From positions 1 through 33,977 of the forward strand of contig JACIWU010000034.1 of assembly GCA_014360805.1 (NCBI GenBank): a DNA stretch of 33,977 bases, given 5' to 3'. This DNA is from Chloroflexota bacterium. GTDB taxonomy: Bacteria > Chloroflexota > Anaerolineae > DTLA01. Shown piece by piece: positions 95 to 26,220 of this stretch. The stretch's first letter is position 1, and every line of letters begins with the position of its first letter. The position numbers were made by a program, and so were the translations under genes. The notes beneath the pieces are model-generated. The model was not told where the DNA came from, ran no database searches, and saw only the letters and a program-made list of their open reading frames with translations.

Positions 95-1450
95 TCACAC
101 CTCGCGCAACTGCGCCACCAGTTCGCGCACGTCGGCGACCTCGTCCAGATGCCACAGGGTGTCCACCAGGCGGTCGGTGCGCTTATCTCCCAGCATGGGG
201 GCGACAAGCCAGCGGAATTTCGCCTCAACCCGCGCCTCGTCCCAGCCGGTCTGCGGGTAGTTGATGTTGCCCTCCACGATGCCCGAGTAGAACTCGCGCC
301 CGTCCTGCGTCCGAATGGCGACGGCGCACGCGTACTTGCCGCTCAGGTCGCCCGTCTCCGCCAGGCGATACAGGCGGTTCAGTTCGTCGGTCTCCGACAG
401 TTCTATCTTCTGCGCAAGGGCACGAATCTCGGGGTCGTCGTAGCGGTGCTCCAGAATCTGCTCGGGGCCAACTTCGCCATCTACAAGGATGGCCGCCAGC
501 GGCCACGCCATGTTGAACTGCGCTTCCTCGGTGGTGGTGGGCAGCCGCGTGCCCAGGCGCACGCCCACCCACGGCGACTCCACGCGGATGTGGGCGATAT
601 CGCCCACCGCGATGTTGTGCTGGCGCACCAGGTCGGTGGCCGCCTTCAGCGCGGCGTGCGTCCAGGCGCAGCAGGCGTATTCCTTCCAGGCGATGCCCTC
701 GGTCATGATGTACTTCGCGCCGATGTCCCGCACCCAGTCGGCGTGCTCGGCCATTTCCAGCACGCTGGGGATACCGGTGAACCCCTCCGCGGCCAGTTGC
801 GCCGAGATGATGCCGTTCATCGCGCCCCATCCGATGCCGTGCTTCACCATGGCCGGATGGTCAATGTCGCGCATCATGGGCAGGTTGGGCGCGTGGTACT
901 CGGCGATGCCCAGCGCCTGGCGCACCGTCGGGACGGGCAGGCGCATGAGGTGCGAAGCCACCGCCGCGCACGCCACCGACCCCCACGACCCGCACGCCTG
1001 GTACACGTTGTGCGTCGCGTGCCAGATGCGGGCGGTGCGGTGCGCCACCTCGTAGCCCACCACGAGGCCGGTGAGCATCTCCGCGCCGCTGCGCCCCAAC
1101 GATTCGGCCACCGCCAGCGCCGTCGGGAACAACTGCGCGCCCGGGTGCCCCTTGGTGAACAGGCCGCAGTCGTCAATGTCAATCCCATTGGCCGCGTACC
1201 CGTTGGCAAAGGCCGCCCCGATGGCCGAGGCGCGGCTTCCGTGCAGGAGAATCGTCGCCGCGTCGCCCGGCCACGTCCTCGCAGCGTAGCGCGCCGTGAT
1301 GCGGCTCACCGGCGTGCGCGTGCCGGGGATCGTCGCGCCCAGCGTGTCCATCGCCGCCATGCGCGCCATGCGCCGAACCGTCGGCGGCAGGTCAGCCCAG
1401 CGGATATCGGCCACAAATCGGGCCGCGATGTCCGAGCCATCCCAAGCCAT
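95..1450 (-). CDS. MmgE/PrpD family protein (2-methylcitrate dehydratase-like)
   Basis: This 451-residue protein has the MmgE/PrpD length and motifs. An early Asp-rich stretch (GIDIDDCGLF) is followed by KGHPG and a Pro-Thr-Ala-Leu-Ala helix, as around the family's active site, and KHGIGWGAMNG is typical of the central helical domain. Known members dehydrate 2-methylcitrate, isomerise or decarboxylate related acids, or are uncharacterised, so the substrate cannot be read from the sequence. The start is well supported by AAGGAGGTTGAT directly before the ATG. It is the last gene of a three-gene unit after an MttB homologue and a PLP enzyme. A route from methionine through 2-oxobutyrate and propionyl-CoA to methylcitrate would fit the PLP neighbour, but this is inference. 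Confidence 0.88.
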   Translation of the reverse strand: MAWDGSDIAARFVADIRWADLPPTVRRMARMAAMDTLGATIPGTRTPVSRITARYAARTWPGDAATILLHGSRASAIGAAFANGYAANGIDIDDCGLFTKGHPGAQLFPTALAVAESLGRSGAEMLTGLVVGYEVAHRTARIWHATHNVYQACGSWGSVACAAVASHLMRLPVPTVRQALGIAEYHAPNLPMMRDIDHPAMVKHGIGWGAMNGIISAQLAAEGFTGIPSVLEMAEHADWVRDIGAKYIMTEGIAWKEYACCAWTHAALKAATDLVRQHNIAVGDIAHIRVESPWVGVRLGTRLPTTTEEAQFNMAWPLAAILVDGEVGPEQILEHRYDDPEIRALAQKIELSETDELNRLYRLAETGDLSGKYACAVAIRTQDGREFYSGIVEGNINYPQTGWDEARVEAKFRWLVAPMLGDKRTDRLVDTLWHLDEVADVRELVAQLREV

Positions 1451-1470: not shown

Positions 1471-2718
1471 TTACAACTGCGCCAGCGCCTGCTCCAGATC
1501 CTGGATGATGTCCTGCGGGTCTTCCAGCCCGACCGACAGGCGAATCAGGCCGTCGTCAATGCCCGCTGCCGCTCGCTCCTCGGGCGTCATGTGCTCGTGG
1601 GTGATGGTGGGCGGGTGCATGCAAATCGTGCGGCTCGTGCCGAAGGTAACGGCATGGGTGATCAGGCGGAAGGCATCAATCACCGTCGCCGCGCCGCGCA
1701 TGCCACCGCGCACCACGAAGGACAGCAGCCCGCCGCCTGCCCTCATCTGCCGCCGCGCCAGTTCGTACTGCGGATGGCTCGGCAGGCCCGGATAGTTGAC
1801 GCGCTCCACTTTCGGGTGCGCCGCCAGGAATTCGGCCACCTTCTGCGCGTTGGCGCTGTGCCGCTCCATGCGCAGCGACAGCGTCTCCAGGAATTGTAGC
1901 GTCATCCACGAGTCAAACGGCTGCATGATGGCGCCGACGAACTCCGTCGTGTTCCAGCGGATGTCTTCCACCAGCGCCTCGGGCCCCACGATGGCCCCGC
2001 CCAGCACCGTGGCATTGCCCGCCAGGAACTTGGTGATGGACAGCAGCACGATGTCGGCCCCCAGGTCCATGGGCCGCTGGAGCGCCGCCGTCGCCGTCGT
2101 GTTGTCCACCAGGAGCGGCACGCCGTGGGCGTGGGCCACCTCGGCCACCGCCGCGATGTCCGTTACGAACAGGCACGGGTTGCTGGGCGTCTCCACCCAC
2201 ACCAGGCGCGTGCGGCGGTCAATCTCGCGGTCCCACGACTCGGGTCGCGCAGGGTTTTTGACGAAGCGGAAATCCACATTGCAGCGTTCGGGGAAGATGG
2301 TCGCCGCCTGCTTGTAGCCCTCGCCGAAGATGTGCAGGCTCGTAACGACGTTGTCGCCCGGCCGCGCGATGGTGAAGATGAGGTTGAACAGCGCCTGCGA
2401 CCCCGACGCTGCCGTAACCGCCGCCTCGCCGCCTTCCAGCGACGCCAGCCGCTCCTCCAGAATCGCGGCCGTAGGCGTCTTGGTGCGACCATAGACCGGG
2501 TAGGGAATCTTGTCAAATCGCTCGTAGGGGTAGGTCATGGACTGCACGATCGGCGGAACAAACGAGCGGAACTTCTCCAGGTCCTTGCCAGGCCGAAAGC
2601 CGGCGTGGAGCGCCCGCGTGTTGAAACCCCAATCGGCGTCAGCGCGCCGGGGTGGCTTGCGCGTGGGGTCGTAAACCCAGGGCTTGCGCATGAAAAAGCG
2701 TTCGTCATCGTGCGGCAT
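1471..2718 (-). CDS. PLP-dependent Cys/Met (trans-sulfuration) family enzyme
   Basis: This is a fold-type I PLP enzyme of the Cys/Met metabolism family: cystathionine gamma-synthase/lyase, methionine gamma-lyase or O-acetylhomoserine sulfhydrylase. Visible landmarks are a Tyr-Gly-Arg segment (YPVYGRTKTPT), the phosphate-binding SGSQA, VETPSNP, the pyridine-binding Asp in LLVDNTTA, the Schiff-base lysine in SITKFLAGN, and the C-terminal RLSVGLEDP. The length of about 415 residues is normal. ATG codons lie at 2724 and 2718; 2718 gives better spacing to GGAGG (8 nt versus 3). The gene sits between an MttB homologue and PrpD. A gamma-lyase acting on methionine or a homoserine ether is plausible, but subfamily and direction of reaction cannot be fixed here. 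Confidence 0.88.
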   Translation of the reverse strand: MPHDDERFFMRKPWVYDPTRKPPRRADADWGFNTRALHAGFRPGKDLEKFRSFVPPIVQSMTYPYERFDKIPYPVYGRTKTPTAAILEERLASLEGGEAAVTAASGSQALFNLIFTIARPGDNVVTSLHIFGEGYKQAATIFPERCNVDFRFVKNPARPESWDREIDRRTRLVWVETPSNPCLFVTDIAAVAEVAHAHGVPLLVDNTTATAALQRPMDLGADIVLLSITKFLAGNATVLGGAIVGPEALVEDIRWNTTEFVGAIMQPFDSWMTLQFLETLSLRMERHSANAQKVAEFLAAHPKVERVNYPGLPSHPQYELARRQMRAGGGLLSFVVRGGMRGAATVIDAFRLITHAVTFGTSRTICMHPPTITHEHMTPEERAAAGIDDGLIRLSVGLEDPQDIIQDLEQALAQL

Positions 2719-2753
2719 ACACATCTTCCTCCGTCTGTCGTGCTATTGCAGGC

Positions 2754-4205
2754 CTAGGGCCTGGCGCTGACGCGCTCCTGCTCGCGCTCCACGATGCGGC
2801 GGATAGCGCGCTGCACGTCTTCGGGGAGTGGTTCGGGCTTGTGCTCGGCGAGAATCTTGTCCACTTGCTGGGCGGCGCGCTGCTCCATGGTCGTCGCGCC
2901 CATCTCCACCCACTGCGAGTACACGCGCTTGTCGGCCAGGCGCGAGTAGTACGCCTTCTTGAAATTGCGCAGCGTGTGCTTGTGCTCCAGGTAGTTGCCG
3001 GTGGGGCCCAGTTCGTCCACCACGTCCAGCGCCAGCGTCTCATCGTTCACCGGCACGCCCGCCGTCGCGGCGCGCAGAAAGCCGATAAGGTCATTGCAGA
3101 TGGCCATGAGTTGCAGCGAGCCTTGCAGCCCCGCGTCCATGAACCCCACATCATGCACGATGTTGGCGCCGTGCAAGAGCGCGGTGAACAGGCTGATGGT
3201 CGCCTCGGCAGCACACTGCTGGTCCAGCACCTTGGAGTCCGTGGAGCCGCCCAGCCCGAACACCGGCAGCCCGTAGAACTTGCCCATCTCGGTGGGAACG
3301 CCCTGCTCCTCGGCCAGCACGTAGTTGCCCACCATCGTTTGGAGATTGTACGGCCCGCCGTTCCAGCCCGGCACCGCCACCGGCGAGCCTTCGCGCACCA
3401 GTTGCGCCAGCACGATGCCCAGAAGCGTGCCCGCATTCATCGTCGCGGTGCAGCCGGCAGTGGTTACCGGCGAGTTGACGCCGCCAGCGTTCAGCGGGAT
3501 GTACAGTTGCGGCAGGCCCTTCTCGGCGAAGTACATGCACTTCTGCAGCGCCTCGGCGTTGGCGATGAGGCCCGACGTAACGTTGATGTAGCAGACGGCG
3601 AAGGGCCGCCGCTGGAAGGCTTCCGCCCCACCCGCCACCGCCTCGCACATCTCCACCGCCGCCACGCAGCCCTCAAAGTCGGGCGTAACGAACACGATGG
3701 GCTTGGTGGTGTTGTTCAGCATCACCTCCATCTGGTAGCGGTCGTAGATGCGCTGATCCACGTCCTCGGGCAGGAACATGGACATGACGAAATCTATCTC
3801 GGGGAGCGCGTCCTGCACGATGGCGGCGTCGCGCACGTCGTTGAGCGTCGGCTTGCGGCGCTGGCCCGTGCGGTGGTCCAGGATGTTGAGGCAGTCGGAG
3901 CCGCCGCCGTAGTACGTGTTGTAGTCCCGCGCGCGGATGGCCACCCTGCCGTGTCGGTCGTAGAGGGTGATCTGTTTGGGCGTAACCGCCAGCGCCTTCA
4001 TGACCATGTGCTCGGGAATGCGGACGCGGATGCCGTCGGCCTTGGCGCCGCCCTTCACCAGGAGAGCGCGCGCCCGTTCATCGTGCACGTCCACGCCCAC
4101 GCGCTGGAGAATCTCCAGGCTGGCGGCGTGGATTTTCTCGCGCTCCTGCTGCCCCAGGCGACAGTAGTGCGCGCTGGTCATGCTCATTCCATGCGTTTGC
4201 AGCAT
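2754..4205 (-). CDS. MttB/MtgB-superfamily methyltransferase, paralogue 1
   Basis: This 483-residue member of the trimethylamine methyltransferase superfamily should move a methyl group from a quaternary or tertiary amine to a corrinoid protein. The family core is intact: IHAASLEILQRVGV near the N terminus, a Gly-rich GGGSDC at about 100-105, STDSKVLDQQ near residue 320, NIVHDVGF, and the C-terminal GPTGNYLEHKHT. There is no in-frame amber codon, so it is not a pyrrolysine enzyme; the closest characterised functional class is the non-Pyl type such as glycine betaine methyltransferase MtgB. The start follows GGAGGGAGAAG. It is the first gene of its unit, read from its own consensus promoter with an overlapping palindrome. 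The substrate is unknown. Confidence 0.92.
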   Translation of the reverse strand: MLQTHGMSMTSAHYCRLGQQEREKIHAASLEILQRVGVDVHDERARALLVKGGAKADGIRVRIPEHMVMKALAVTPKQITLYDRHGRVAIRARDYNTYYGGGSDCLNILDHRTGQRRKPTLNDVRDAAIVQDALPEIDFVMSMFLPEDVDQRIYDRYQMEVMLNNTTKPIVFVTPDFEGCVAAVEMCEAVAGGAEAFQRRPFAVCYINVTSGLIANAEALQKCMYFAEKGLPQLYIPLNAGGVNSPVTTAGCTATMNAGTLLGIVLAQLVREGSPVAVPGWNGGPYNLQTMVGNYVLAEEQGVPTEMGKFYGLPVFGLGGSTDSKVLDQQCAAEATISLFTALLHGANIVHDVGFMDAGLQGSLQLMAICNDLIGFLRAATAGVPVNDETLALDVVDELGPTGNYLEHKHTLRNFKKAYYSRLADKRVYSQWVEMGATTMEQRAAQQVDKILAEHKPEPLPEDVQRAIRRIVEREQERVSARP

Positions 4206-4219
4206 CTTCTCCCTCCGGC

Positions 4220-4237
4220 AATGTGATATATCACATT
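4220..4237. promoter_or_regulatory. 18-bp perfect palindrome, probable operator
   Basis: AATGTGATATATCACATT is a perfect 18-bp palindrome, very AT-rich against its surroundings. It overlaps the -10 box of the mttB1 promoter and is centred on the predicted start site (about 4228). The position suits a repressor that blocks initiation. The TGTGA/TCACA halves have a 4-bp centre, not the 6-bp centre of classic CRP sites. The cognate regulator is unknown. Confidence 0.7.
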
Positions 4238-4263
4238 ATAGGATATAACACATTTGCTGTCAA
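4235..4263 (-). promoter_or_regulatory. Consensus sigma-70 promoter of mttB1-PLP-prpD unit
   Basis: On the minus strand TTGACA (4263-4258), a 17-bp spacer and TATAAT (4240-4235) match both consensus hexamers exactly with optimal spacing. The predicted start is near 4228, giving a leader of about 22 nt before the ATG at 4205. Confidence 0.85.
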
Positions 4264-15529: not shown

Positions 15530-17122
15530 CTAGCCATTGTCGGCCAGGGCGTCTTCCACGGCCCTGGTCAGGGCGCCGGTCGCCACAAGCGCCGTAACCG
15601 ATTCTATGTACGGATACATCACGTCATCGCGTTCCAGGAACGGGACATGTTGCCGAATTAGCGAGTAGGCGGCCTGGGTGCCCTTGCCCAGGCGCGCGTT
15701 CGGGCCGAGGATGGCCCGCCTGAAGTCAATGCCCTGCGCCGCGGCCATCAGTTCCAGCGCCAGAATCCGCTCCACGTTGGCCGCGATCCTCCGCGCATGG
15801 CGCGCCGCGGTCGGCCCCATGCTCACGTGGTCTTCTATGTTGGCCGAGGTCGGGATGGTGTCAGCGCTGGCCGGATGCGCCAGGACTTTGTTCTCCGACG
15901 CCAGCGCCGCGGCGGTGTATTGGGTGAGCATGAAGCCCGAATTCAGGCCGCCTTCGCGGGTCAGGAACGCGGGCAACGTCTCCGCGTTGCTGGACTCATC
16001 GGTGAGGCGGGCCAGCCGCCGCTCGGACATGTTGCCCAACTCGGTGAGCGCCAGGCTGAGGTAATCCATGGCGATGGCCAGCGGCTCGCCGTGGAAGTTC
16101 CCGCCCGACAGCACCGTCGCCTCGCCGGTGTCCTCGTCAATGAAGATGAGCGGGTTGTCGGTGGCCGCGTTCAGTTCTATGCTCAGCACCCAACGGGCGT
16201 AGGCGATGGCGTCGCGCACCGCGCCGTGCACCTGCGGGATGCAGCGCAACGTGTAGGCATCCTGGACGTTGAGCGGGTCGTCGGGGCGGGTGTAGGTGCT
16301 GCCTTCTATCAGGCGGCGCAGGTAGGCGGCGCATTCCACCTGGCGGGGGTGCGGCCGCGCGGCGTGGATGCGGGCGTCAAAAGCGCGCGGCGTCCCGTAG
16401 GTGGCCTCCAGGGTCAGGCAGCCCGCGATGTCGGCCACGCGCGACAGGTTCTCGGCCTGCCACGTGGTCAGCGCGCCGATGGCCGCCATCAGGGCGGTGC
16501 CGTTGGTGAGGGCAAGCCCCTCCTTGGCCTCCAGCGTCGTGGGGCGCAGACCGGCCCGCGCCAGCGCCTCGGCGCCGGGCAGCCGCTCACCCTGGTACAC
16601 CGCCTCGCCCAGGCCGATGATGGGCAGCGCCATGTGCGCCAGGGGAGCCAGATCCCCGCTGGCTCCCAGCGACCCCTGCGCGGGCACCACCGGATGCACC
16701 CCGCGGTTCAGCATGTCCAGCAGCAGTTGCAGCGTCTCCAAGCGGATGCCCGAATGCCCCTTGGCGAGGGCATTGGCGCGGATGAGCATCATGGCGCGCA
16801 CCGTCGGCTCGTCCAGCGGCTCCCCTACCCCCACGGCGTGGCTCATGAGGATATTGCGCTGCAATTGGCGAACCTGGTCGGGCGGGATGATGCGCCCCTT
16901 GAAGGCCCCGAACCCCGTCGTAACGCCGTACACAATCTCGCCGCGGGCGATGAACTCCTGCACGGCCCTTTCGGCCCGCCGCACCCGCGCGCAACTCTCC
17001 TCGGACAGGGCGACCTCCAGGCTCTGGCCCCTGGCCGGCGCGTAGGCGACCGCGACTACATCCTTCAGGGTGAGGCTGTTTCCGTCAATCACCAGCAGAG
17101 AAACCAAGTCCAAACGCTCCAC
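15530..17122 (-). CDS. hutH: Histidine ammonia-lyase
   Basis: This 530-residue MIO-dependent aromatic amino acid lyase would convert L-histidine to urocanate and ammonia. The Ala-Ser-Gly triad that cyclises to the MIO cofactor is at 154-156 in GSLGASGDLAPLAH, and the loop tyrosine is Y65 in VYGVTTGFG. NGTALMAA and DNPLIF are also characteristic. The length is slightly above the usual 505-515. The start is uncertain: GTG at 17122 is used here, without a good Shine-Dalgarno, and a second in-frame GTG lies 30 bp inside. It follows urocanate hydratase, as in hut operons, but a nested inverted repeat separates the two. Action on an N-methylated histidine is conceivable but not shown; the intact MIO triad favours ordinary histidine. 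Confidence 0.93.
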   Translation of the reverse strand: MERLDLVSLLVIDGNSLTLKDVVAVAYAPARGQSLEVALSEESCARVRRAERAVQEFIARGEIVYGVTTGFGAFKGRIIPPDQVRQLQRNILMSHAVGVGEPLDEPTVRAMMLIRANALAKGHSGIRLETLQLLLDMLNRGVHPVVPAQGSLGASGDLAPLAHMALPIIGLGEAVYQGERLPGAEALARAGLRPTTLEAKEGLALTNGTALMAAIGALTTWQAENLSRVADIAGCLTLEATYGTPRAFDARIHAARPHPRQVECAAYLRRLIEGSTYTRPDDPLNVQDAYTLRCIPQVHGAVRDAIAYARWVLSIELNAATDNPLIFIDEDTGEATVLSGGNFHGEPLAIAMDYLSLALTELGNMSERRLARLTDESSNAETLPAFLTREGGLNSGFMLTQYTAAALASENKVLAHPASADTIPTSANIEDHVSMGPTAARHARRIAANVERILALELMAAAQGIDFRRAILGPNARLGKGTQAAYSLIRQHVPFLERDDVMYPYIESVTALVATGALTRAVEDALADNG

Positions 17123-17251: not shown

Positions 17252-18901
17252 CTATTTCAGCATAGGAATCTTCACGCCGCGCTCTTTCGCCACCTGGATG
17301 GCCCGCTCGTAGCCGGCGTCCGCATGGCGCACCACGCCCATCCCTGGGTCGGTGGTCAGGACGCGCTCCAATCGGCGTGCGGCTTCGGGCGTGCCGTCGG
17401 CCACGATGACCATGCCCGCGTGTTGGCTGTAGCCGATGCCCACGCCCCCGCCGTGGTGGAAACTCACCCACGTGGCGCCGTTCACCGCGTTGATGAGCGC
17501 GTTCAGAATCGCCCAGTCGGAGATGGCGTCAGAGCCGTCCTTCATCCCCTCCGTCTCGCGGCGCGGCGACGCCACCGAACCGGCGTCCAGGTGATCGCGC
17601 CCGATGACGATGGGGGCCTTCACCCTACCGCTGGCCACCAAGTCGTTGAAGGCCAGGCCGGCCTTGGCGCGCTCGCCGTACCCCAGCCAGCAGATGCGCG
17701 ACGGAAGGCCCTGGAACTTGACCTTCTTCTGCGCCATCTTGATCCAGCGCACCAGGTGCTCGTCGTGCGGGAAAAGGTCCATGATAACCTGGTCGGTTAC
17801 GTAGATGTCTTCGGGGTCGCCCGAAAGCGCCACCCAGCGGAATGGCCCCTTGCCCTCGCAGAAAAGCGGGCGGATGTACAGCGGCACGAACCCCTGGAAG
17901 TCAAAGGCGTTCTTGACGCCCATATCATAGGCCCGCTGGCGGATGTTGTTGCCGTAATCAAAGACCACGCTCCCCTTCGCCTGGAAGTCCAGCATGGCCT
18001 GCACGTGGGCCGCCATGGACTCCATGGCGCGGCGCTTGAACGCTTCGGGGTCGCGCTCGCGCAGGGCCTTGGCCTCCTCAAAGGTCATGCCGCGCGGGAA
18101 GTAGCGCAGGGGGTCATGGGCGCTCGTCTGGTCGGTTACCACGTCGGGCACGACGCCGCGCTGCACCAGTTCGGGCAGCACCTCGGCGGCATTGCCGATC
18201 AGCCCGACCGACAGCGGCTTCTCCGCGGCTACCGCCTCCTCCACCCACGTCATCGCCTCTTCTATGTTCTCGGCGATGCGGTCCAGGTAGCCGGTGCGCA
18301 GTCGGCGCTCGGCCCGCCAGCGGTCAATCTCCACCACCAGCGCCACACCTTCGTTCATGGTAACGGCAAGGGGCTGAGCGCCGCCCATCTCGCCCAGGCC
18401 CGCGGTGAGCACGAACTTGCCCTTCAGGCTGGGCCAGCCCTGGGCCTTGGCGCACGCCGCCATCGTCTCGTAGGTCCCTTGCAGGATGCCCTGTGTGCCG
18501 ATGTAAATCCAACTTCCGGCCGTCATCTGGCCGTACATGATGAGGCCCTTGCGCTCCAGTTCGTCAAAGTAGTCCTGCGTGGCCCAGGCCGGCACCAAGT
18601 TGGAGTTGGCAATGAGCACGCGAGGGGCATCGGTGTGGGTCTTGAAGATGGCGACGGGCTTGCCGCTCTGCACCAGCAGCGTCTCGTCGGGCTCCAGGTT
18701 GCGCAAACTATCCAGGATGGCGTCAAAGCATTCCCAGTTGCGGGCCGCCTTGCCGCTCCCCCCGTACACAATGAGGTTGTCGGGGTCAAAGGCCACGTCG
18801 GGATCCAGGTTGTGCTGGATCATGCGATACGCAGCCTCTATGAGCCAGTTCTTGCATGTCAGTTGGGTACCCGTAGGTGGATGTACGACTCGCCTCGCCA
18901 T
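17252..18901 (-). CDS. hutU: Urocanate hydratase
   Basis: Urocanase adds water to urocanate, using tightly bound NAD+, to give 4-imidazolone-5-propionate. The protein has 549 residues, the usual length. The urocanase signature is clear in [20 protein letters not shown], with the conserved Cys. Other family blocks are [49 protein letters not shown] and [18 protein letters not shown]. The ATG follows GGGAG and AGAGG. It starts only 15 bp after the ABC ATPase stop, tying histidine breakdown to the transporter operon. The next hut enzyme, imidazolonepropionase, is not in the window. Confidence 0.96.
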
Positions 18902-18916
18902 ACCTCTATACTCCCT

Positions 18917-20995
18917 CTAGTTTTCGGTTTTGCTCGGCGCGACGACCACCGCCTCCGTCTTCCGCAGTTCGTCCAGCGGAATGTGGCAGAAAATCCGATG
19001 CCCGTTGCCGGCCTCCTGCCATGGCGGGGTCTCTCGCTCGCAGATCTCGCCCAGTTTGCGCGGGCAGCGCGTATGGAACCGGCAGCCGCTGGGCGGGTTC
19101 AGCGCACTGGGCACCGTGCCGCTCAGGCGGATGCTCTTCTGCTTCACCGTCGGGTCGGGGAACGGCACCGCCGACAGCAGCGCCTCGGTGTAGGGATGGT
19201 ACGGCGGCGCGTAGATGGCCTCGGCGGGGCCCGACTCCACCACATGCCCCAGGTACATGACCGCGATGTAGTCGCAGAAGAACCGCACCACGCTCAAGTC
19301 GTGGGCGATGAAGACCATCGTCGTCCCCAGTTCGGCCTGAATCTCCAGCAACAGGTTAAGCACCGCCGCCTGCACCGACACATCCAGCGCCGACACCGGC
19401 TCATCGCACAGCACCATGGCGGGCAGGCCCGCGATGGCCCGCGCGATGCCCACGCGCTGCTTCTCGCCGCCGCTCAACTGGCGCGGCAAGCGGTCGTAAT
19501 ACCGCTCGCCCAACTTCATCATCTCCAGCAGGCGCACCACCTCGCGGCGCACATCCTTGCGCGGGATATTCCGGAATCGGCGCAGCGGCCAGGCGATCTG
19601 CTGCCCCACGCTGAACGACGGATTGAGCGTGGAGTCGGGATTCTGGAAGACCATCTGCAAGTTGCGGATGATCTCCATGCTGCGCTTGGAGACCGGCACC
19701 GAGATGTCCATGCCCATGAACTCAAACTCGCCGCCGGTCGGCTTCTCCATCCCAACGATCGTCTTGACGAGTGTGGTCTTGCCGCAGCCCGATTCGCCGA
19801 CGATGCCCAGCGTCTGACCGCGCCTCACCTCCACGCTCACGCCGTCCACCGCCTTCACTACCTGCTTGCGCCCCATGATCTGGCGAGACGGCACCTCGTA
19901 GTACGTGCGGGCGTTGCGCACGCTGAGCAGCGGCTTCTCGTCCGCGGTCCCCTGCACAGCAGGCAGACGGACAGGCACCTCTTCCGACGGCGCCCAGTCC
20001 GATTGCACCACCTCCTCGGCAAACAGGCAACGCGCCCAATGGCCCGGAGCCACCTCCCGCAAATCGGGCCGGCTTAGGCTGCAGTCGGGCCGCGCGTAGG
20101 GGCAACGCGGCTCAAAGACGCACCCGGGCGGGAGCCTATCTGGCGGCGGCACTCGCCCCTTGATGGGGTACAGGTAACTACTGGCCTTGTCCATGCCCAG
20201 CCTGGGCACGCAGCGCATCAGCCCCTGCGTGTACGGATGATGCGGCTGCAGGAACACATCCTCCACCGAGGCGCGCTCAACCAACTCGCCCGCGTACATC
20301 ACCCCCACGCTGTCCGACACGCGGGCGATGACGCCCAGGTTATGGCTGATGTACATGATGGCCGTGTCAAAGTCCTTCTGCAGTTCCTCCACCAGGTCCA
20401 GGACCGCCGCCTCCACGGTAACGTCCAGGGCCGTCGTCGGCTCGTCCATGATGAGCAGCGCCGGGTCGTTGAGCAGGGCCATGGCAATGACCACGCGCTG
20501 TTGCTGGCCGCCCGACAGTTGGTGCGGATAGCGCCGCATGACGTTGGCCGGGTCGGGCATGTACACACGCCGAAGCATCTGGATGCACCGATCCTCGGCC
20601 TCTTTGCGCTTCATGCCCCGATGCACCACCAGCACCTCGCTCAGTTGCTCGCCGATACGCAGCGACGGGTTCAGCGCCTGCATCGGGTCCTGGTACACCA
20701 TGGCAATGCGGTCGCCGCGCAACCGCCGCAGTTCCTCTTCGGAGCGCCCTACCAGGTCCTGGCCCTGGAAGAGGATGCGCCCGTTGGTGATCCGCCCATT
20801 CCGCCCCAGGAAGTTGACGATGCCGAAGGCCACGGTGCTTTTCCCGCAGCCCGACTCGCCGACGATGCCCAGAGTTTCGCCACGGCGTATCTCAAACGAC
20901 ACATTGCGCACCGCGTTCACATCGCCCTTTCGTGTCTCATAGGCGATGGCCAGGTCCTGCACCCTCAGAATCGGAGCACTACGCGCTTGCTGCAT
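18917..20995 (-). CDS. Fused double ATPase of peptide-type ABC transporter (DppD-DppF like)
   Basis: This 692-residue protein carries two complete oligopeptide-type ABC ATPases in one chain. Domain 1 has Walker A GESGCGKST (from 46), signature LSGGQQQRVVIAMAL and Walker B LLIMDEPTTALD. Domain 2, from about 350, has GESGCGKTT, LSGGEKQRVGIARAI and MVLCDEPVSALD. Each ends with the oligo_HPY-type extension holding a Cys pattern (CVFEPRCPYARPDC and CRFHTRCPRKLGEIC), which in this family may bind an Fe-S cluster. One fused polypeptide replaces the usual DppD/DppF pair. It energises the permeases encoded just upstream. Both sites look catalytically intact. Confidence 0.95.
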   Translation of the reverse strand: MQQARSAPILRVQDLAIAYETRKGDVNAVRNVSFEIRRGETLGIVGESGCGKSTVAFGIVNFLGRNGRITNGRILFQGQDLVGRSEEELRRLRGDRIAMVYQDPMQALNPSLRIGEQLSEVLVVHRGMKRKEAEDRCIQMLRRVYMPDPANVMRRYPHQLSGGQQQRVVIAMALLNDPALLIMDEPTTALDVTVEAAVLDLVEELQKDFDTAIMYISHNLGVIARVSDSVGVMYAGELVERASVEDVFLQPHHPYTQGLMRCVPRLGMDKASSYLYPIKGRVPPPDRLPPGCVFEPRCPYARPDCSLSRPDLREVAPGHWARCLFAEEVVQSDWAPSEEVPVRLPAVQGTADEKPLLSVRNARTYYEVPSRQIMGRKQVVKAVDGVSVEVRRGQTLGIVGESGCGKTTLVKTIVGMEKPTGGEFEFMGMDISVPVSKRSMEIIRNLQMVFQNPDSTLNPSFSVGQQIAWPLRRFRNIPRKDVRREVVRLLEMMKLGERYYDRLPRQLSGGEKQRVGIARAIAGLPAMVLCDEPVSALDVSVQAAVLNLLLEIQAELGTTMVFIAHDLSVVRFFCDYIAVMYLGHVVESGPAEAIYAPPYHPYTEALLSAVPFPDPTVKQKSIRLSGTVPSALNPPSGCRFHTRCPRKLGEICERETPPWQEAGNGHRIFCHIPLDELRKTEAVVVAPSKTEN

Positions 20996-21043
20996 TCCCT
21001 CTTGCCTCTCATATCGGTTCTACTCGCGCCCAGAGCCGCACGG

Positions 21044-21928
<885 letters not shown>

Positions 21929-21971
21929 GCGCATTTCTCCTTGCAGCCTGCCATGTCCAACAGCCCCCGAA

Positions 21972-23273
21972 TTACGTGTAACGAATGCGCGGATTGAGGA
22001 ATGTGTAGATAATATCTGCGATCAGTTGTGTCCCCACGGCCAGAGCCACCATCACCATGGCCCCCGCTTCAATGGCATTGATATCCTTGAACAACGCCGA
22101 ATCCAGCATATACATCCCCAGACCCGGGTAGCCGAACACCGACTCCACAACCACAATCCCGCCGATAAGCCAGTTCACGTGGAGCATGATGACGGTTATC
22201 GGGGCCATCAGCGCGTTGCGCACGGCGTGCTTGAAGACGATGCGCCAGTAGGGCAGGCCCTTCAGGAACGCCGTGCGGATATACGGCGCGTTCATGACCT
22301 CAATCATGCTGGCGCGCGTCATGCGGGTAACGTAGCCCACCTCCACCAGTGTCAGGGTGAGCACGGGCAGGATGAGCAACTTCGGCTGCATGTACGGCGC
22401 CACATCGCTCACGAACACCGTCGCGCCGGGCAGCACCTTAAGCCAGAACGCAAACAGCAGGATGAGAAACACTCCGCTGGCGAACTCCGGCACGGATGTG
22501 GTAACAAGGCTGAAAATGGAGATAGTACGATCCAGCGCGCGGCCCTCCTTCAGCCCCGCCAGGATGCCCAACAGCAGCGCGATGGGCATGATGATGACGA
22601 AGGCGATGCCCGCCAGCACGAACGAGTTGCGCAGCCGCCGCACGAGGGTAGGCCCGACCGGCTTGTTGGTGCGCAGCGAGATGCCCGGGTCGCCTCGCAG
22701 CAGCCCCTTGCGCAGCGGATAGTACTCCACGCCGCTGGCCTCGGTCATGGTGCGGCCCGCCGAGGCGGGGCCGACTTTCTGCGCCTCCTCGCCTTTGCGC
22801 CATAGGACGACGTGGTCGGCGGTGTCGACGCCCCAGAAGATTTCGCTGCCATCCTCGGCGACCTGCCAATCCTCAAAGAGAACTTCGTCGCGGGTTCCGT
22901 CGGGAGCGACGCGAATCTCTATCAGGCCCGTGTCCTTCTTCATGCGCCACTGCTTGAGCGTGCCGTCGGCCTCCACCGCCCACCAGGACGGGCTGTCGTA
23001 CTGGCCCACTTGGGTATACCGCAAGGGCTTGCCAACCAGCCGCCACAGCCTCCAGTCGTTGCCCACCAGCCAGTCCAGATAGCGAATCGCCACGTGCTGG
23101 TCAAGGCCCATCTGGTCGCGCAGGAGTTCCACCTGCTCGGGCGTGGCGAACTGGCCCAGGATGTGCCGGGCCACGTCTCCAGGCGCCACCTCCGAGATGA
23201 GGAAGATGGCGACGGAAACCAGGAGCATCGTCAGAAGCATGAATCCGATTCGGCGCAGGATATACTTGGCCAT
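21972..23273 (-). CDS. ABC transporter permease (DppB-like) with large extra domain
   Basis: This 433-residue OppB/DppB permease is about 110 longer than the usual 310-330. The first helix is at roughly 10-30 and LRDQMGLDQHVAIRYLDWL follows normally. At about 72 the sequence departs from the family and rejoins it near 190 at KGLLRGDPGISLRT. The extra roughly 118 residues are hydrophilic, rich in Trp, Asp and Glu, and contain two similar strands-and-turn units (WWAVEADGTLKQWR, FWGVDTADHVVLWR). It should face the outside, next to the binding protein. The remaining five helices and the EAA loop (MIEVMNAPYIRTAFLKG) are normal. The ATG at 23273 follows AAGGGAG; an upstream in-frame ATG at 23321 lacks support. 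Confidence 0.94.
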   Translation of the reverse strand: MAKYILRRIGFMLLTMLLVSVAIFLISEVAPGDVARHILGQFATPEQVELLRDQMGLDQHVAIRYLDWLVGNDWRLWRLVGKPLRYTQVGQYDSPSWWAVEADGTLKQWRMKKDTGLIEIRVAPDGTRDEVLFEDWQVAEDGSEIFWGVDTADHVVLWRKGEEAQKVGPASAGRTMTEASGVEYYPLRKGLLRGDPGISLRTNKPVGPTLVRRLRNSFVLAGIAFVIIMPIALLLGILAGLKEGRALDRTISIFSLVTTSVPEFASGVFLILLFAFWLKVLPGATVFVSDVAPYMQPKLLILPVLTLTLVEVGYVTRMTRASMIEVMNAPYIRTAFLKGLPYWRIVFKHAVRNALMAPITVIMLHVNWLIGGIVVVESVFGYPGLGMYMLDSALFKDINAIEAGAMVMVALAVGTQLIADIIYTFLNPRIRYT

Positions 23274-23304
23274 GTTACTCCCTTGCTTATCTCGTTCCGG
23301 GTCG

Positions 23305-23409
23305 CCGCTTTGGACTGCCAAAGCGGACCCCTAGCCGTCCGACGGCCTTGCTTCAGCAGCCCGAGGCGTCAGGTTCGGCTCCCATGCCCGGCGTGCGAGC
23401 ATGGGAGCC
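23305..23409. other. Three hairpins between binding-protein and permease genes
   Basis: The 180-bp gap holds CCGCTTTGG/CCAAAGCGG (23305-23313, 23318-23326), GCCGTC/GACGGC (23334-23339, 23341-23346) and GGCTCCCATGC/GCATGGGAGCC (23377-23387, 23399-23409), all perfect. Placed just after the binding-protein stop, they may cause partial termination or protect the upstream mRNA, so that the binding protein is made in excess over the membrane parts, as in other importers. No U-tract was seen. Confidence 0.65.
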
Positions 23410-23453: not shown

Positions 23454-25160
23454 CTACGCCTCCGGGTCGTACCAGGCGTTGTACAGGATGTCGTAGTTGG
23501 TCGGGTGCGCGCCCACGTTCTTGAACTTCTTGTTCGCAATGTACCAAACATTGGTCCAGAACGCAATCCCGACCGAGCCGCGCTCCATCTGGATGTCTTC
23601 CAGTTTGCACATGATAGCGCGGCGCTTCTCCACATCCAGCGTCCGCTCGGCTTCCTTGAGCAGCGTCGTGAACTCCGGATCCACCCAGTAGGTCTCGTTC
23701 CACGGCACGGGCTTGCCGGTGTCGTCGGCGGTGTAGGCCAGCGCCAGCACCATGGTGCCCAGCGGACGGTGCGCCCAGATGGTGATGCCCAGCGGGACCT
23801 CGGTCCAGATGTCCCAGTACTGCGCCGAGGGCAAGATGTTGAGTTGGATGTCAAACCCGCCCGCGGCTGCCGATTCGCGCAGCGCCTGCGCCATGGCCGG
23901 CTCGGCGCGCGCCTGCTGGGTGGACAGTTCCACCGACAGTCCGTTGGGATAGCCGGCTTCGGCCAGCAACTTCTTGGCGCCCTCCGGGTCGTAGGGCGGG
24001 ATGTCCTTCGGGCAGTACTCGGGGTGGATCGGCGCCACATGCGCGTCGTGGCCCAGCACGCCCTCGCCAAACCAGGCCAGGTCCAGCATCTTCTGGCGGT
24101 CAATGCACTTCTTGAGCGCGAGGCGCACGCGGTTGTCGTTCCACGGCTCCTTGTCCACGCGCATGCGGATGACGAAAGTCTGGGCAGTCGGTGTGGAGTA
24201 GACGGTTACCGTGGGCAAGTCCTTCACCGCCTGCCAGATTTCCGCGGACGGGTTGAAGATGTTGTCCACCTGCCCGCTCTGCATGGCCGCGATGCGGGCC
24301 GCATCGTCCTGCCCCAGGTCCAGGTACACCAGCCGATCCAGGTAGGGGTACGGCTTGCCGTCGTCGGCCATCAGCCAGTAGTCCTCGCGGCGGCGGAACA
24401 CGGCGCGCTCGGTCTCGCGGAACTCTTCCAACAGGAACGGCCCCGTGCCGATGGGCTGCTTGGTGATGTCGCCCTCAAAGGTGCGCGGGACGATCATGGC
24501 CGGGTAGTGGAACAGGTGCTCGGGCACGGCAATCTGCGGCGAATCCAGATGCAACTTGACGGTGTAGTCGTCCACCTTCTCAATGCCGGTCGGCTGGAGG
24601 TAACTCAGCAGGCCCAGCATGGACGAACCCACGTCCTTGTCCAGCCACTGCTGGAAGTTGAAGATGACGTCGTCGGCGGTCAGTTCCTGGCCGTTGTTGA
24701 ACTTGATGCCCTTCCGGATGTGGAGCGTCCACTCCTTGACCTCGGCGTCGGCCTCCCACTTCTCCAGCAGCCAGGGGTGCGTGATGTTGTCGTAGTCGGT
24801 GTAGGTGAGGTACTCGCAGACCTGGCGGAACTGGTTCACGCCTTCAATCCAGGACAGGCGCGCAGGGTGATCCACGCGCGGCACGCGGGTGGCGATGGTC
24901 ATGGTGCCGCCGCGCTTGGGGCCGGCCGGCTTGGGCGTGGCCGTGGGCTGAACGGCAGGAGGCTTCGTGGGCGCGGTGGTGGGGGTCGCCTTCGTGCCGC
25001 ACGCCGACAGGAATGCGGTCGCGCTGGCCAGGGACATGCCCAGCAGAGTGGCGTTGCGAAGGAACTCGCGGCGCGTGATCCTCCCCTTCTTGTAGAGTTC
25101 CTTCAGTTCGGGGATATACGGGTGCTCGTGCTGCGTCTCATCCTTCTTGATGATCTCCAT
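23454..25160 (-). CDS. Peptide-type ABC transporter substrate-binding lipoprotein, Tat-type signal
   Basis: This 568-residue solute-binding protein belongs to family 5 (DppA/OppA type). Its N terminus has a twin-arginine motif (TRREFLRN, R30-R31), a hydrophobic stretch and a lipobox LSAC with C54, then a Thr/Pro-rich linker (about 56-85). This indicates export, possibly folded via Tat, and lipid anchoring outside the membrane. Family blocks include KEWTLHIRKGIKFNNGQELT, GTGPFLLEEF and the C-terminal half with repeated aromatic motifs. The start follows GAGGAGGAG. It is the first gene after the minus-strand promoter at 25411-25439. The ligand is unknown; the downstream hut and methyltransferase genes suggest a histidine-derived or N-methylated compound. 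Confidence 0.95.
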   Translation of the reverse strand: MEIIKKDETQHEHPYIPELKELYKKGRITRREFLRNATLLGMSLASATAFLSACGTKATPTTAPTKPPAVQPTATPKPAGPKRGGTMTIATRVPRVDHPARLSWIEGVNQFRQVCEYLTYTDYDNITHPWLLEKWEADAEVKEWTLHIRKGIKFNNGQELTADDVIFNFQQWLDKDVGSSMLGLLSYLQPTGIEKVDDYTVKLHLDSPQIAVPEHLFHYPAMIVPRTFEGDITKQPIGTGPFLLEEFRETERAVFRRREDYWLMADDGKPYPYLDRLVYLDLGQDDAARIAAMQSGQVDNIFNPSAEIWQAVKDLPTVTVYSTPTAQTFVIRMRVDKEPWNDNRVRLALKKCIDRQKMLDLAWFGEGVLGHDAHVAPIHPEYCPKDIPPYDPEGAKKLLAEAGYPNGLSVELSTQQARAEPAMAQALRESAAAGGFDIQLNILPSAQYWDIWTEVPLGITIWAHRPLGTMVLALAYTADDTGKPVPWNETYWVDPEFTTLLKEAERTLDVEKRRAIMCKLEDIQMERGSVGIAFWTNVWYIANKKFKNVGAHPTNYDILYNAWYDPEA

Positions 25161-25255: not shown

Positions 25256-25410
25256 CCGAGCGCACCTCCTTTCTGTCCGGTGAGAAATGGTGGACCACGG
25301 GCTTTCTATGCTATGTCTCGCAGCAACGATTGCGCAAGGTGAGTCCATTGCCGCCCGTGGCCGGTAGGTGGGGCATAGCAATTCACGGTCGGCGTCTGTG
25401 TGATGCATCA

Positions 25411-25439
25411 AGTATAGCACATGCTATGCCACCTGTCAA
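25411..25439 (-). promoter_or_regulatory. Near-consensus promoter of the transporter/hut/mttB operon
   Basis: On the minus strand TTGACA (25439-25434), a 17-bp spacer and TATACT (25416-25411) form a near-perfect sigma-70 promoter. Predicted start about 25404. It reads toward the binding-protein gene at 25160 and, with no strong terminator seen before 4353, may serve about 21 kb. A palindrome overlaps its -10 and spacer. Confidence 0.8.
25414..25427. promoter_or_regulatory. Palindrome in divergent promoter region, candidate GntR operator
   Basis: ATAGCA-CA-TGCTAT is an inverted repeat with 6-bp arms inside the minus-strand promoter, overlapping its -10. Related half-sites lie at 25308-25314 (ATGCTAT), 25375-25380 (ATAGCA) and 25475-25481 (GTGCTAT, across the gntR -10). 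The adjacent divergent GntR gene is the natural candidate regulator. Part of the similarity at the two -10 boxes could simply be extended -10 sequence. Confidence 0.55.
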
Positions 25440-25545: not shown

Positions 25546-26220
25546 GTGGCGACTACCCAGCCCGGCGAGACATCCAAATCGGTGATCTACAAACAGTTGC
25601 GGCGGGCCATCATCATGGGGCACCTCAAGCCCGGCCTGAAACTGGACGTGGACGAACTGGCGCGCAAGTATGGCACCAGCGTTACCCCCGTCCGCGACGC
25701 CCTGCAGATGCTGGGCCAGGAAGGCCTCGTAACCATCAAGTCCCGCTCGGGCTACTTCGTTACGCATACCACCCTCAAAGAACTGCGCGATCTCCTGGAC
25801 CTCCGCGAGATTCTGGAAGTCGCCGCCGTGGAGCGCGCCATCGGTCGCATCACCGAGGAGCAGTTGGAGCAACTGGCGCACGTCCACGCCCCCTATACCG
25901 GCGACGACGACGAATCCTACGACCGCTACACCGACGAGAACCGCCGCTTCCACTACCTCCTCGCCAAGGCGTCGGGCAACGACCAACTGGCCGAGACCCT
26001 GGGCCGGCTCCACGACCGCCTGGCCCGTTTCATGGTGCTGCGCCACGCGGGGCGCATTCAGCCCGAAAGCCACGCCCGCATTCTGGAAGCCATCCGCCTG
26101 GGCGACAGGGACAGGGCCATCGCCCTCACGCGCCAGGAACTGAACGCCACCCGCGACGCCATCCTGGACCGCGTGATGCAGGAAGAGGCCGCCAACTGGC
26201 CCGTCGGCGCGATCCGCTGA
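25546..26220 (+). CDS. GntR-family transcriptional regulator, FCD type
   Basis: A 224-residue regulator and the only plus-strand gene. Residues 10-75 are the GntR winged helix (SVIYKQLRRAIIMGHLKPG, LARKYGTSVTPVRDALQML, GYFVTHTTL). Residues 80-215 are an all-helical FCD ligand domain with RDLLDLREILE, DENRRFHYLLAKASGN (possible metal ligands D130, H136) and SHARILEAIRLGD (H176); a C-terminal His ligand is not obvious. GTG at 25546 is preferred because AGGAGG ends 5 nt before it and the promoter lies just upstream; an open frame continues upstream to 25147, but that stretch holds both promoters. It is divergent from the transporter operon, so local and self-regulation is likely. It converges on mttB5 with only 10 bp between stops. 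Confidence 0.93.
   Translation: MATTQPGETSKSVIYKQLRRAIIMGHLKPGLKLDVDELARKYGTSVTPVRDALQMLGQEGLVTIKSRSGYFVTHTTLKELRDLLDLREILEVAAVERAIGRITEEQLEQLAHVHAPYTGDDDESYDRYTDENRRFHYLLAKASGNDQLAETLGRLHDRLARFMVLRHAGRIQPESHARILEAIRLGDRDRAIALTRQELNATRDAILDRVMQEEAANWPVGAIR

Follow-up and report, generated by a model that had tools for sequence, protein, structure and literature searches.

Which regulator would recognise the palindrome lying across the start of mttB1, and what else would it govern? In the 33,977-nucleotide stretch of Chloroflexota DNA analysed here (the window), mttB1 (2754-4205, minus strand) is preceded by a promoter of consensus sequence. The initial annotation of the window had seen in its palindrome a motif different from a second palindrome near 25414, and thus a separate regulator, perhaps the IclR protein encoded at its right end. 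We examined both promoters, their counterparts in related genomes, and the candidate binding proteins.

The mttB1 promoter and its palindrome

The -35 element TTGACA (4258-4263) and the -10 element TATAAT (4235-4240), separated by a 17-bp spacer (4257-4241), were read directly on the minus strand between 4263 and 4235, as previously annotated. Both hexamers are kept in two genomes of the same genus, G001 and G002 (the congeners). A ribosome-binding sequence, GGAGGG (4211-4216, minus strand, also read directly), stands upstream of the mttB1 ATG at 4205 (minus strand). The predicted +1, assigned by rule as the 7th base past the -10 hexamer, is 4228. The putative operator AATGTGATATATCACATT, a perfect 18-bp palindrome at 4220-4237 with the core TGATATATCA at 4224-4233, has its dyad axis at 4228.5, that is, at -1/+1, and so does cover the predicted start, as had been claimed.

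The annotation had also pointed to the exact consensus as exceptional in a GC-rich genome. The match itself stands, but its rarity does not: the 3.24-Mb genome has 42 exact copies of TTGACA-17-TATAAT, 18 of them forward and 24 reverse (none with a reversed-pattern control), which makes the promoter strong but unexceptional by itself. Two more of these exact-consensus promoters (G000:C46:19333-19361 and 20087-20115) have palindrome-like spacers, TAGAACGCATGTTCTA and TAGAACGAATGTTCGT, which resemble a LexA/SOS box. The informative part of the mttB1 promoter region is the palindrome. With up to 3 mismatches allowed, the 18-mer matched the window once (0 matches in 100 shuffles), and the genome search that had been suggested, run with the same tolerance, found it at one place only. 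Among the 7 perfect palindromes of at least 12 bp in the window it shares first place in length with the perfect 18-bp GTGGGCGATATCGCCCAC (590-607), which lies inside the PrpD-family coding sequence. A degenerate copy, AATGTGTTATATCC, was present in the -35/-10 spacer (4241-4254, minus strand, centre -17.5); it is out of phase with the sites of relatives, its role is doubtful, and it may not matter.

With 276.7 bits against PF06253 (cut-off 25), the mttB1 product belongs to the MttB superfamily; against the TMA methyltransferase equivalog model TIGR02369 it reached 358.1 bits, under the cut-off of 525. The putative operon continues with a PLP enzyme of the Cys/Met metabolism family (1471-2724, minus strand), which accompanies mttB1 in relatives too, and ends with an MmgE/PrpD family protein (95-1450, minus strand). 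The surrounding cluster (2754-29129) holds six MttB-family genes (at 2754, 4353, 9485, 10976, 26231 and 27684), together with genes for histidine ammonia-lyase (15530-17122), urocanase (17252-18901), methylaspartate ammonia-lyase and xanthine-dehydrogenase-like subunits. Judging from these genes, demethylation of hercynine (histidine betaine) leading into histidine breakdown is a possible pathway; a literature search for hercynine with MttB found no paper.

Conservation of the core and its link to a GntR/FCD gene

Both congeners retain the promoter with ATGTGATATATCACA, while the outermost arm of the palindrome is altered, its second arm being ACAG in each (ATGT...ACAG). A scan of species genomes for MttB1 gave 58 loci, mostly from Anaerolineae and other Chloroflexota, and from Desulfobacterota (taxon groups as in the record titles). 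The core was taken from the window palindrome and a first upstream listing; the loci counted afterwards overlap with those that defined it. Genes were called mechanically, promoters were located by their hexamers, and the majority of the relatives are metagenome assemblies. Leaving out 10 truncated or distant loci, exact TGATATATCA was found within 200 bp upstream of mttB1 in 12 of the 48 loci used (shuffle mean 0.025, maximum 1), and with at most one mismatch in 18 (shuffle mean 0.545, maximum 3). Across 40 sites the commonest letters read approximately CATCTGATATATCAGATG; the arms vary and TGATATATCA is kept. As the core recurs in the upstream DNA of relatives far above shuffles, the conserved element is the core and not the arms. 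The annotation had named lack of conservation upstream of orthologues as the observation that would count against it. Core and position are conserved there, in keeping with the predicted regulated promoter whose palindromic operator would control mttB1, the PLP enzyme and PrpD.

The same core appears at a second promoter, about 21 kb from the first. Downstream of TTGACA (25434-25439, minus strand) and, after 17 bp, TATACT (25411-25416, minus strand), the window has a second putative operator, TGATGCATCA (25401-25410), at the start of a transporter operon. The first gene encodes a solute-binding protein of family 5 (23454-25160, minus strand), and the OppB, OppC and fused OppD/F genes follow (18917-23321, minus strand). 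This site departs from the core at both central bases (2 mismatches). In G001 and G002, exact TGATATATCA occurs twice per whole genome, once at the mttB1 start and once 150 bp upstream of the start of a GntR gene; alignment places this second copy directly after the TTGACA-17-TATAAT of the divergent solute-binding-protein operon. The genome of the window has exact TGATATATCA once, and TGATGCATCA at the aligned GntR-side place. The palindrome noted earlier near 25414, ATAGCACATGCTAT (25414-25427), overlaps the transporter -10 and spacer; G001 and G002 both have one of its pairs disrupted. Because the operator recurs immediately beside it, the mttB1 and 25414 motifs are not different in the way assumed, and the argument for a separate regulator is not supported. 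At one mismatch or fewer, the three genus genomes gave 5, 8 and 7 forward matches to the core versus 5, 5 and 1 with a reversed control, hence little sign of targets past the two promoters.

In 11 relatives GntR, the solute-binding protein, OppB and mttB1 share one locus, usually in the order GntR | SBP-mttB1-OppB-OppC-OppDF-PLP; the window solute-binding and Opp proteins are 53-81% identical to those of relatives' clusters among the matches listed. The simplest history would be that one operon was split in two in this genus, or that two were joined elsewhere, with an operator kept on each start.

The GntR/FCD gene of the window (25546-26220, plus strand) encodes our proposed operator-binding protein, with an N-terminal winged helix-turn-helix (PF00392, 65.3 bits, cut-off 27) and a C-terminal FCD effector domain (PF07729, 76 bits, cut-off 24.3). 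Gene clustering found one GntR/FCD protein adjoining mttB1 or the transporter-mttB1 operon in 27 relatives, where it sits divergently beside them. It is the orthologue of the window GntR, the aligned proteins showing 57-65% identity, against 27-36% for the remaining GntR matches of the genus genomes. The recognition-helix region (TSVTPVRDALQML in the window GntR) is nearly unchanged in most relatives. Exact cores were present in 17 of the 27 clustered loci (shuffle mean 0.037, maximum 1) and cores with at most one mismatch in all 27 (shuffle mean 0.8, maximum 5); among 29 control palindromes with matching composition, the most successful scored in 2 of the 27 loci. One analysis of these loci took 22 of the 27, the 5 without the anchor motif being dropped.

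A tblastn recount, which added GntR in two loci absent from the ORF clustering set (L033 and L039), placed the gene in 29 of the 58 mttB1 loci, and in 27 of these 29 the 350 bp upstream of the match contained a site with no more than one mismatch. Among mttB1 loci without GntR in the locus and with more than 2.5 kb of upstream DNA, a site was found in 1 of 10. L015 was scored as having no GntR, although one genome of the class sample, G192, has the gene on an equally long contig, beyond the stretch compared; omitting L015 gives 1 of 9. The sole locus with a site, L005, belongs to the window's own genus, and its GntR lies ~21 kb away. The difference gives a Fisher p of 2.4e-6, a value that ignores the relatedness of the loci. 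The two exceptions have divergent GntR genes without a good core: L033 (2468-2723) has no site at 2 mismatches, and L039 (2153-2435), which carries an imperfect palindrome, ACTCTGATATTGCAGAGT, has one only at 2 mismatches. It may be that the operators of these two loci have diverged. A separate draw from 396 genomes of the class yielded 17 GntR loci (3 from the window's genus, 6 identical duplicates, 2 at contig edges and 6 usable). Four of the 6 usable new loci, a small sample, had a site at one mismatch or fewer; L104 had one only at 2 mismatches and L098 none. By itself, the nearness of site and GntR gene is no proof of binding: the promoter on which the site falls belongs to the target operon next door.

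Site positions, proposed mechanism and rival regulators

The position of the site relative to predicted promoters is fixed. Of 23 promoters (23 of 27 loci; the 4 without a promoter scoring at least 9.5 were left out), 13 had a site centred at most 1 bp from -22.5, 11 had one as close to -0.5 and 7 to +20.5, and 5000 trials of random shifts gave means near 0.6 and maxima of 4, 5 and 5. Further centres lie at about -44.5, -53.5 and -75.5 in some relatives. Spacings of 21-22 and 31 bp amount to two or three helical turns, so that neighbouring dimers would sit on the same face of the DNA. In the window the centres are at -0.5 (mttB1) and -1.5 (transporter) from the predicted starts. A protein bound at -22.5 or -0.5 would stand in the path of RNA polymerase, which makes occlusion the likely mode of repression.

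We propose that the palindrome is the operator of the GntR/FCD regulator encoded at 25546-26220. A GntR dimer on the core TGATATATCA at the mttB1 start would block RNA polymerase at a near-perfect sigma-70 promoter, and the same protein would bind the homologous site next to its own gene, where the divergent ABC-transporter operon, of oligopeptide type, begins. A pathway ligand, presumably a methylated amine, a betaine or something derived from one of these, would release it, and because the same GntR would occupy both sites, uptake and the mttB1, PLP enzyme and PrpD operon would be induced together. The sites, their conservation, their tie to the GntR gene and their fixed placement come from sequence comparison; from them we infer GntR as the binder, repression as the effect, the place of +1 and the kind of ligand. 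We are strongly inclined to believe that this GntR binds and represses the mttB1 and transporter promoters at their start sites until a ligand releases it, and one GntR regulator would thus probably govern how a methylated compound is both taken up and broken down. Speaking against this reading are the poor or missing sites of L033, L039, L104 and L098, a core that has none of the GT/AC boxes common in FadR-subfamily operators, and the two altered central bases of the site beside GntR in the window.

The same protein could instead bind as an activator or a dual regulator, and the upstream sites near -44, -53 and -75 in some relatives are indeed where activators or cooperative dimers can sit. 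We think this unlikely: in the window promoters the site coincides with the start and both hexamers are close to consensus, and in the 13 and 11 related promoters counted above the site falls within the spacer or at the start, so that a protein there would get in the way of polymerase.

A metal-dependent repressor of the DtxR/TroR type has only a slim chance of being the binder. The motif tracks the GntR gene across loci; the loci around DtxR-like genes (L107-L110) have no site at one mismatch or fewer, and the exact sites in the genus are confined to mttB1 and the transporter promoter beside GntR, with none at metal-transport genes. This candidate owes its interest to the Treponema tro operator oligonucleotides, which contain TTTTGATATATCAAAA and TTTTGATGCATCAAAG, the same pair of cores (excerpt of PMC2628430), and to a DtxR-family match above cut-off in each genus genome.

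The IclR protein favoured by the initial annotation, as a separate regulator binding the mttB1 palindrome, is an unlikely candidate, its chances slimmer still. It is encoded in the same window (its C-terminal part, at the edge), and an IclR gene lies beside GntR in the relatives L006, L007 and L036, but these are the only 3 relatives' loci in which IclR clusters, against 27 with GntR, the gene that the motif follows across phyla. According to PMC8222616, proteins of the IclR family also occupy tandem sites spaced by about two turns, but the consensus types given there, GKTYCRYW3-4RYGRAMC and TGRAACAN1-2TGTTYCA, are unlike TGATATATCA. In G001, whose IclR gene is complete, a stretch of 3.5 kb around that gene has no site at up to 2 mismatches, and the only one-mismatch site near IclR in L006 falls within the GntR coding sequence. 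This G001 gene (L119, G001:C116:34000-37500) has its own TTGACA-16-TATAAT-like promoter, with an inverted repeat, TAGGGGCAATTCACGAATTGCCCCTA, upstream and no TGATATATCA-like site. A TGCAAC-N3-GTTGCA-like inverted repeat upstream of the L006 IclR gene was not above chance in the window.

A PadR-type repressor, whose box is ATGT-N8-ACAT, is scarcely credible, for although the window palindrome fits this box exactly and the genome has PadR-family genes, the second arm is ACAG in both congeners and the arms vary across the 40 sites with TGATATATCA kept. The same variation led us to reject a CRP-like reading (TGTGA...TCACA).

Significance and comparison with known systems

To our knowledge, many MttB-superfamily enzymes are without a known substrate. 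In two phyla this regulator goes with a single MttB clade, a single PLP enzyme and a single transporter, which offers a handle on the pathway: the ligand that releases this GntR would point to the pathway substrate. On balance we lean towards seeing in these loci a GntR/FCD regulon for anaerobic methylated-amine breakdown in Chloroflexota and Desulfobacterota. It would have an atypical operator class, TGATATATCA without GT/AC boxes, in arrays phased at two or three helical turns (-75, -53 or -44, -22, 0, +21), and in the window's genus one ancestral operon would have been split into two promoters 21 kb apart with the operator on both starts. A literature search for the string TGATATATCA returned, among the matches listed, TroR and mostly barcode or primer sequences, none on GntR by title; in the titles and abstracts listed, with few subscription papers covered, no description of this GntR regulator was found.

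There is a likeness in sequence to the operators of the DtxR-like TroR of Treponema, whose cores TGATATATCA and TGATGCATCA lie near a sigma-70-like promoter, as here (excerpt of PMC2628430). The Treponema tro operators alternate TGATATATCA and TGATGCATCA in the way of the GntR-linked sites (same excerpt). TroR differs from the window GntR in being of an unrelated protein family with metal-transport targets, and the likeness is probably convergence on a short AT-rich palindrome.

The window GntR stayed under the cut-off of every NCBIfam model that it matched. Its best match, TIGR03338 (phnR_burk, a phosphonate-associated GntR regulator), gave 99.3 bits, far under the curated cut-off of 271.5, which places the protein outside that family; the window proteins scanned included no phosphonate genes. 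The nearest PDB entries by sequence were 3sxy (E 2e-23) and 3fms (E 5e-23), the latter of which we take to be TM0439 of Thermotoga maritima. The former is given as TM0439 of T. maritima in PMC4494728, which also names small organic acids as the expected effectors of the FadR subfamily and TKGT/ACMA boxes as its operator consensus, with exceptions such as BioR and NanR. By position frequencies over the 40 sites, TGATATATCA is without these boxes and is not the usual FadR-type operator described there. Given those exceptions, an unusual motif leaves the window GntR in its family. It would add an operator, open to testing, for a group within the FadR subfamily whose motif strays from the standard one. 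With the FadR-subfamily (FCD) GntR repressors the window GntR has in common the PF00392 and PF07729 architecture, a gene divergent from its target operon and an AT-rich palindromic operator on the promoter; it differs from them in its targets, here an MttB-family methyltransferase and an Opp-type transporter.
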